From Pseudomonadota bacterium (GTDB lineage Bacteria > Bdellovibrionota > Bacteriovoracia > Bacteriovoracales > Bacteriovoracaceae): DNA of 64,000 nt. The translations under genes and the position numbers were made by a program. The notes beneath the pieces were generated by a model. That model saw nothing but the letters and a program-made list of their open reading frames with translations, was not told the DNA's origin and ran no database searches. The stretch is from assembly GCA_027487515.1 (NCBI GenBank), contig JAIYDL010000019.1, positions 186,001-250,000 of the forward strand, given 5' to 3'. Below, one piece after another: positions 62,079 through 64,000 of the stretch (its first letter is position 1; each line of letters opens with the position of its first letter).

Positions 62079-64000
62079 CTACCATCGACTCCCCCAGACC
62101 CCATTGTTACTCGCATCGACGATCGCAAGCTCGGTGCTGTTGATTCCGAGGAGCTCCCCGCGGCGTTCCGTCCGCGAGGCCCAGATCGGTGTCGAGCCTT
62201 GGTAGAGGACAAGGTTCCCGTCGCTCTGGAAAACCATGCGACAATCCACGCCGCAGGTGCGGCCCGTCGTTCCAGTGGCCCAGACAGCTCGACCGCCGGC
62301 ATAGAGGACGAAGTTTCCATCCGTTTGAAGGGTGAAAAAGAACCCCTGACCTCGGCGCACACCTCCGCCGTAGAGAACGAAGCGACTCTTCTGAAAGCCA
62401 AACCACGTCTGCTTACTATCCTCACTCGTAGCGATGGGAATTCGAGTGCCGGCATCAACCACCTGGACGTGGGGGGCGCTCGCGGCGAACCGTAGGATCG
62501 CCGACGGTGCCACCGACCCCATGCTCCAGTACTGAACTCCCTTTTGACTGAGGATCAGATTTCCGGCGCTGGTGAAGCTCGCTTGGCAGTCCACGGAACA
62601 GTCCCGCGTCCCGCCACTCGAGACCCAAAGGGTTTTTCCTGCGGAGTCAGAGAGTGTCAGCACGCCGGTGGTTCTGAAGGCGAGGGTTAGAGTCTGAGAA
62701 CGCCGAGTTTCTCCGCCGCGAAGGTTCAAAGTCCCGGAAGTAAATTCGAGGGTCGCCGGCAGCGGGGTCGTGGAGACTGGGGCCGGGGCGATCAAGGTTC
62801 CACCCGGCAGGGCAGCGTCGAGGCCGACCGGGAAGGCATACACGACTGGAGAGTCCAGCGCCAGAAGGAAGCTCTTGAGGTCTTCCCGATCATCGAGTGA
62901 AAGATCGATGGGCCGAATCTCCGGGTCTTTGGTGATCCCATTCCCCGAGCCAGCGCGCACGTAGGCGTCGAGAACCTCGTCCAGATTTCGCGCGGAGCCG
63001 TTGTGAAAATAGGGGGCAGAGCTTGCGAGGTTTCGCAGGGACGGAGTCTTCATTTTAAAGAGGTCAACTCGGCGGCCCGTGATCATCTGCTGGCCGTTGT
63101 TGGACTGGAAGATGCCAGTGTCGTGCATGAGCTCGTCACTGAAGTTCGGTCCGTTATGGCAGGCGGCACAGCGGGCCTTTCCGAAGAAGAGATTCATCCC
63201 GCGTTTCTCGTTGGCACTCAGGGCGTTACTTTCTCCGTCCTGGAGGTAGCGATCGAAGTCCGACTTCCCTGAGGTGATGGAGTTGACGAAGGCGGCCAGG
63301 GCCTCTTGCACGTAGATGGCACTCGGGTCTCCCTTGAAGACGGTTCTGAACCGTGCCTTGTACTCGGAGTTATTGTTGAGTGCGGTCACCACCGCATCCT
63401 GGGAGACGCCCATTTCATTGGGGTGGCCTAACGGCGCCCAGACCTGATCTAGGGTCGTCGCGAATTTTCCGGTCCAGTTTTGGCGCCGGCCGAGGGCCCG
63501 GTTAACCAGAGTCGGTGAATGGAAATCGAGCCCGACTCCCGTGAGTCCCCGTCGGATGCTGACCCCGTCGGAGAACCCTTTGGACGAGTCGTGGCAGCTC
63601 ATGCAAGAGACCGCATTCGTCGCCGAAAGGCGCCGGTCCCGGAAGAGGAGGCTTCCAAGTTGCGCGGCTTCGACGGTATAGGTCGTCCCCATGACCCGGA
63701 GATCCGTGTTCTTGATCGCCGATGCATTGTTGATCGCCGGTTGTCCTCGGCGGCCCTTGGGGATGTGGGCCGAATCTGCGAACTCATCGGCGCTTCGGAC
63801 CACGGCCGACAGCTTGAACTCATCCAGCGCCAGGACGTAGCGGTTCTCCGAACTGTACGGAAGAACGTTCCGTCCGCCGGCGTCCTTACCGGTCGGGCCC
63901 ACGTAGGCGAAGCCCTCGGGGGTTCGGATCTGTGTGCCCGGAGGAAGGACCTTCTCAAAAACCTTTACAGCGTCGAGGAAGACCTGAAGGATTCGAGAAT
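62079..64000 (-). CDS. Di-haem cytochrome c peroxidase (MauG-like) fused to a bulb-type lectin region (5' end outside window)
   Basis: The frame is open to the window edge (32 more codons before GTG 63902), so the N-terminus is missing. The first part is a CCP/MauG-type di-haem protein with two haem sites, CMSCH and CAACH, and typical NRALGRRQNWTG and KTPSLRNLASSAPYFHNGS. It reduces H2O2 or oxidises a protein partner in the periplasm. The last ~210 residues form a bulb-type (mannose-binding, QxDxNxVxY) beta-prism: LQTDGNFVLY and FQSDGNLVLY keep the site, an earlier FTSAGNLILS does not. Such a fusion is unusual. Confidence 0.85.
   Translation of the reverse strand, partial: SRILQVFLDAVKVFEKVLPPGTQIRTPEGFAYVGPTGKDAGGRNVLPYSSENRYVLALDEFKLSAVVRSADEFADSAHIPKGRRGQPAINNASAIKNTDLRVMGTTYTVEAAQLGSLLFRDRRLSATNAVSCMSCHDSSKGFSDGVSIRRGLTGVGLDFHSPTLVNRALGRRQNWTGKFATTLDQVWAPLGHPNEMGVSQDAVVTALNNNSEYKARFRTVFKGDPSAIYVQEALAAFVNSITSGKSDFDRYLQDGESNALSANEKRGMNLFFGKARCAACHNGPNFSDELMHDTGIFQSNNGQQMITGRRVDLFKMKTPSLRNLASSAPYFHNGSARNLDEVLDAYVRAGSGNGITKDPEIRPIDLSLDDREDLKSFLLALDSPVVYAFPVGLDAALPGGTLIAPAPVSTTPLPATLEFTSGTLNLRGGETRRSQTLTLAFRTTGVLTLSDSAGKTLWVSSGGTRDCSVDCQASFTSAGNLILSQKGVQYWSMGSVAPSAILRFAASAPHVQVVDAGTRIPIATSEDSKQTWFGFQKSRFVLYGGGVRRGQGFFFTLQTDGNFVLYAGGRAVWATGTTGRTCGVDCRMVFQSDGNLVLYQGSTPIWASRTERRGELLGINSTELAIVDASNNGVWGSRW

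Follow-up and report, generated by a model that had tools for sequence, protein, structure and literature searches.

Organisation of the locus

The DNA analysed here (the window) is a stretch of 64,000 nucleotides from a bacterium of the phylum Bdellovibrionota that corresponds to positions 186001-250000 of contig C14. Close to its right edge, a large gene on the minus strand ends at position 62079. Its start lies outside the window at about 65912 (251912 to 248079 in contig coordinates, minus strand), and the gene consists of 1277 codons in one uninterrupted frame. It extends 1.9 kb past the window, in which only the C-terminal half of the 1277-residue protein (residues 639-1277) is visible. 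From its hydrophobic N-terminus (MLKRFMTVTTLKYLSLPFLLVTFLVFQNF), the protein proceeds through a front domain of about 500 residues to a Laminin_G_3 (LamG) domain, a CCP_MauG di-haem domain and two bulb lectins. The following features were assigned:

62079..64000, minus strand: part of the gene within the window, residues 639-1277
62079..62435, minus strand: second bulb-lectin domain and stop codon, residues ~1160-1277 (profile, phmmer, model and fold matches); its third sugar site, within these positions, is degenerate
62202-62228, minus strand: intact sugar site QSDGNLVLY of the second lectin
62301-62327, minus strand: intact sugar site QTDGNFVLY of the second lectin
62448..62795, minus strand: first bulb-lectin domain, residues ~1040-1155, sugar-site motifs lost
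62838..63695, minus strand: CCP_MauG di-haem domain, residues 740-1025 (profile match)
62961-62981, minus strand: DEVLDAY with Tyr984 at the distal E-haem ligand position
63156-63170, minus strand: haem motif CAACH, residues 915-919
63591-63605, minus strand: haem motif CMSCH, residues 770-774
63765..64000, minus strand: C-terminal part of Laminin_G_3 (whole domain residues ~545-716, the remainder past the window)
64001-65912 (L001:4001-5912), minus strand, beyond the window: residues 1-638, comprising the hydrophobic N-terminus, the front domain and most of LamG

Both haem motifs, which had been recognised in a first-pass annotation of the DNA and are confirmed at the residues given above, lie together with the lectin region in a single open frame of the minus strand. 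The claim that a di-haem enzyme is fused to a bulb lectin is borne out by this frame, by the CCP_MauG match and by the lectin fold. It is further backed by a protein from another genome (L047) in which, as the annotation had proposed to check, the same domain order recurs with TSP1 repeats added. A frameshift, a chimera or two separate genes are ruled out by the 1277-codon frame and the recurrence in L047. The join of lectin and MauG-type domain is real, and it is rare.

The Laminin_G_3 profile (PF13385) matches the protein with E 9e-6 and 26.3 bits against a cut-off of 27.6, while eight relatives score 30 to 51 bits. The front domain is beta-rich and has no Pfam match. The protein is probably exported and envelope-associated, as suggested by its hydrophobic N-terminus, by the lipobox-type N-termini of relatives and by the extracytoplasmic nature of c-haems. 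Several of these relatives carry, for example, FQNC, whereas the protein studied here has FQNF and thus lacks the lipobox cysteine; inspection by eye revealed no clear signal peptidase I site in it either. A protein for cytochrome c assembly, on which the attachment of haem depends, is encoded in the genome.

A MauG-like di-haem domain

CCP_MauG (PF03150) is matched with E 2.6e-42 and 145 bits, far above the cut-off of 25.6 (E 1.6e-41 when all 1277 residues are searched), and the two CxxCH motifs complete the assignment to this superfamily. Its members differ at the distal ligand of the E-haem, which is a methionine in classical cytochrome c peroxidases (CCPs). At the corresponding alignment position, from which ligation is predicted, our protein has Tyr984, as does an annotated MauG (CP029174.1), while the ordinary CCP of the organism's own genome (L062) has a methionine. 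The haem domain is also closer to the annotated MauG (39% identity in the alignment) than to this Met-ligated CCP (33%). Tyrosine occupies the position in all ten readable large-protein members of the family, and methionine in 22 ordinary CCPs from related genomes. Three further di-haem proteins of a different type (L003, L030 and L061) carry tyrosine there as well. In MauG, the six-coordinate haem has Tyr-His ligation (PMC6405878).

The domain is nevertheless MauG-like rather than MauG, since the equivalog models for MauG (TIGR03791, 176 bits against a cut-off of 444) and MbnH (TIGR04039, 183 bits against 363) are both missed by a wide margin. In addition, no MbnP-like partner is encoded among the flanking genes, and no mau genes were seen. 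With MauG and MbnH, the domain shares the two CxxCH sites, the tyrosine at the distal E-haem position and the motifs PxEM and KTPxLR...PYxHxG, but here it forms one module within a protein of 1277 residues. The bacterial CCPs 1iqc, 3o5c and YhjA (9qdt), which have the same two-haem fold, are the nearest solved structures by sequence; they differ in having methionine in place of the tyrosine and in lacking the fusion to scaffold, LamG and lectins. A resemblance to hydrazine synthase proved to be a mere echo via the haem domain; PDB chains of hydrazine synthase were not among the matches to a profile of the front part.

The first-pass annotation had named the enzyme a cytochrome c peroxidase. 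A classical CCP is rejected on the ligand position, and "peroxidase" is probably the wrong label for a domain that by its sequence appears MauG-like. One could still imagine a peroxidase that scavenges H2O2 in the classical manner and bears its surface domains incidentally, given the membership in the CCP_MauG superfamily and the di-haem peroxidases 1iqc and 3o5c as best PDB sequence matches. Such a role is distinctly unlikely in view of the tyrosine at the E-haem, the ordinary CCP already present in the genome, and the LamG and lectin domains, which would be superfluous for detoxification.

Two bulb lectins with two intact sugar sites

The C-terminal region comprises two tandem bulb lectins, not one, the first of which is degenerate. 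In the profile search that had been suggested as a check, CCP_MauG exceeds its cut-off, whereas B_lectin (PF01453; E 9.9e-7, 29.7 bits) falls just under the Pfam threshold of 32.4, by 2.7 bits; L047, with the same fusion, exceeds it with 44.6 bits. Despite the score below the cut-off, the lectin identity is firm because of three further results. Gastrodianin (1xd5) is matched by phmmer at E 3.2e-18. An AlphaFold2 model of residues 1030-1277 shows two all-beta domains (mean pLDDT 76.5), in line with the beta-prism II structure anticipated by the first-pass annotation. The best PDB matches of this model in Foldseek are the two-domain bulb lectin 1dlp, pyocin L1, LLPA/putidacin L1 and gastrodianin, the latter with a TM score of 0.73 by target length and 38% identity. 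A chance match is ruled out by these results, and the modelled lectin region has the beta-prism II fold. The large rmsd to two-domain lectins is probably due to how the two domains are tilted against each other, which the model does not fix.

Two of three sites had been reported to keep the mannose-binding pattern QxDGNxVLY. The two intact sites stand, both in the second lectin, but they belong to a total of six in two lectins, the other four being degenerate. It could therefore be asked whether the lectins are mere structural spacers that have lost sugar binding: the motifs of the first lectin and one site of the second are gone, and L049, a member of the same clade, manages without a lectin. 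Yet every motif residue is kept at two sites, and the two lectins of L047 have four intact motifs between them, which makes the loss of sugar binding very improbable.

The monocot mannose-binding lectins gastrodianin (1xd5) and SCAfet (1dlp) have the beta-prism II fold and the site motifs in common with our protein, which in contrast is bacterial, is fused to a redox enzyme, has four of six sites degenerated and contains an extra pair of cysteines in each domain. Putidacin L1/LLPA and pyocin L1 likewise consist of tandem bulb lectins with QxDxNxVxY sites and are among the best fold matches, but they are small free bacteriocins, whereas the lectins discussed here are part of a large haem protein. 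A lectin-like bacteriocin (NF033557) is accordingly rejected: that model gives 49.9 bits, where 275 are required.

Across 369 genomes from the phylum, the A3 profile detects bulb lectins in 23. A search of the organism's own genome for the B_lectin family gave no match, which reflects a limit of that search, as the A3 profile does find lectins there. Three other proteins of this genome combine lectins with no haem motif (L057:3956-5998, plus strand; L134:2829-4454, minus strand; L134:11680-13884, plus strand), and one of them has lectins at both ends. Elsewhere, the carriers include a cellulase-like enzyme (L138), an NHL-repeat protein (L059) and large proteins, some of them glycosidase-like by eye only (L058, L135, L136). 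Two more (L140:5713-8316 and L142:4851-8132, both minus strand) are single-haem proteins unlike ours, with one CxxCH, C-terminal bulb lectins and no other Pfam match, so that at least two kinds of fusion between c-haem proteins and bulb lectins exist. Bacteriocins or adhesins had been named as the usual carriers of bulb lectins; among the lectin proteins read, this is not true of the phylum. Since they mostly reside on other large exported-looking proteins, the comparison favours docking over a toxin role, and the bulb lectins of the phylum look like docking modules.

A scaffold family with two kinds of haem tail

The combination of front domain and LamG is complete in eight of the 369 genomes of the phylum, the present one included, which represent five families; a looser match occurs in one more MauG-bearing gene (L055). 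A scan of genome contigs yielded at least ten loci, i.e. eight from metagenome-assembled genomes of Bdellovibrionota (L074 among them being new) and two from Planctomycetota (L068, L073), and the scaffold precedes CCP_MauG in every locus read. One relative, L048, ends at a contig edge, and the gene of L074 is split across two frames. The core of front domain, LamG and MauG-type domain is hence present in at least 11 other genomes, from Bdellovibrionota and two Planctomycetota. In plasmid records, the match was to the CCP part alone.

Of the carriers of the core that were read, L047 alone has lectins as well. Its C-terminal end is arranged as TSP1-lectin-TSP1-lectin, and its domain order otherwise agrees with that of our protein. 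The two form a clade with L048 and L049 (99/99), the latter being devoid of lectins. Our protein and L047 may have gained their lectins in one event or in two; in a weak lectin tree, the second lectin of our protein groups with that of a protein from the same genus (L058; 87/84) and not with those of L047. The recurrence of the core in 11 other genomes indicates that the lectins are an add-on to a redox-scaffold family. In eight more large proteins (L054, L056, L160, L161, L162, L164, L165, L166), the scaffold ends in a single-haem tail containing FC-x-x-CH, where the others have the MauG-type domain. In the scaffold proteins read, a c-haem is thus always joined to the scaffold, and the lectin is an optional addition. 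As a side observation, DUF4214 repeats are inserted in the front part of L049 (L049:3218-7315, plus strand), and DUF4214 also occurs behind a lectin in L134:11680-13884 from the organism's own genome.

The model of the core is poor (mean pLDDT 61.8). In Foldseek, front domain and LamG align over ~700-950 columns with sialidases and the GH43 arabinanase AbnA, which consist of a beta-propeller followed by a ConA-like domain. With ~10% identity, an rmsd >15 A and TM scores of 0.16-0.18 by query, these alignments are at best a faint indication of a propeller-like front domain. The LamG region also matched receptor-binding domains of neurotoxins; these are generic ConA-like folds and were set aside.

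An alternative is a self-modifying enzyme, in which the MauG-type domain would oxidise conserved tryptophans of its own front domain to create a cofactor or metal site, while the lectins would merely position the product. In the systems MbnH/MbnP and MauG/methylamine dehydrogenase, enzyme and substrate are found on two chains. Wherever the sequence of a MauG-bearing member extends over them, Trp47, Trp350, Trp421 and Trp628 are unchanged. Trp421 is absent from seven of the eight single-haem-tail relatives, and the family is not accompanied by a conserved partner gene. However, the members with MauG and those with a single haem probably belong to separate clades, and shared ancestry explains the pattern equally well. 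Moreover, Trp350 is present in both forms, Trp628 sits in LamG, where tryptophan is common, and the poor model of the front domain does not allow distances to be judged. Overall, self-modification seems unlikely.

A lineage-specific insertion

The MauG-bearing form was not found in any of the 25 other genomes from this genus; one of them (G021) has the single-haem form L056. The gene is flanked by genes for a U32 peptidase and a methyltransferase, which are adjacent in four relatives read, about 135 to 265 bp apart, the U32 protein being 85% identical in the closest relative. In the host, they are separated by 4.8 kb containing the gene and a divergent signal peptidase II gene. The stretch of ~4.8 kb is a lineage-specific insertion (or was lost in the other relatives), and its G+C of 0.589 is similar to that of the neighbouring DNA. 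The neighbours differ among the relatives of the protein that were read; there is thus no conserved partner gene or operon.

The signal peptidase II-like gene, the second in this genome, lies just past the window (L001:6062-6922, plus strand; window coordinates 66062-66922) and encodes a protein with a Peptidase_A8 match of 68.6 bits and a C-terminal extension. It shares the insertion with a protein that has FQNF, not the lipobox FQNC, at its N-terminus. Further past the window, L001:9419-13999 (plus strand) holds a cluster of genes that by eye belong to the mevalonate pathway (type 2 IPP isomerase, HMG-CoA reductase, mevalonate kinase and diphosphomevalonate decarboxylase), the order of which is the same in relatives from the genus.

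Proposed function and implications

Taken together, the protein is best read as a glycan-docked di-haem oxidase of the MauG type that would be exported and associated with the envelope or matrix, a reading that we hold at a probability of roughly 0.55. The scaffold of front domain and LamG would carry the haem-loaded enzyme on its C-terminal side, and the two bulb lectins behind the enzyme could dock it on a glycan, one of them through its two intact mannose-type sites. The glycan might belong to the bacterium's own capsule or matrix, to a biofilm or to another cell, conceivably prey as the first-pass annotation had it. There, H2O2 may bring the di-haem centre into a MauG-like high-valent state that oxidises a macromolecule close by, in the simplest case an aromatic side chain in a protein; we infer this oxidase reaction from the MauG-like tyrosine at the E-haem ligand position. 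The earlier suggestion of an enzyme directed to a glycan surface is in keeping with the evidence, while its peroxidase part is doubtful owing to this tyrosine. Counted against a docked oxidase are the four degenerate sites among six, the FQNF terminus, the low MauG and MbnH scores and the lack of a conserved partner.

A bolder proposal would regard the proteins as a surface redox-scaffold family, in which front domain and LamG are combined with interchangeable c-haem modules, the MauG type oxidises its own front-domain tryptophans and the lectins aim the mature protein at glycans in some lineages. As a whole, it is decidedly doubtful.

In the literature, as far as it was covered, no description of a fusion between a MauG-type enzyme and bulb lectins was found. 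The recognisable parts are each of a known kind, while their combination and the scaffold family appear to be undescribed. To our knowledge, each characterised MauG-type enzyme modifies one partner protein. The finding points to a front domain that is absent from Pfam. A MauG-type enzyme placed in an exported scaffold with LamG, and sometimes with bulb lectins, would carry its chemistry to cell surfaces, and would thus exemplify sugar-directed oxidation in a phylum noted for its predators.
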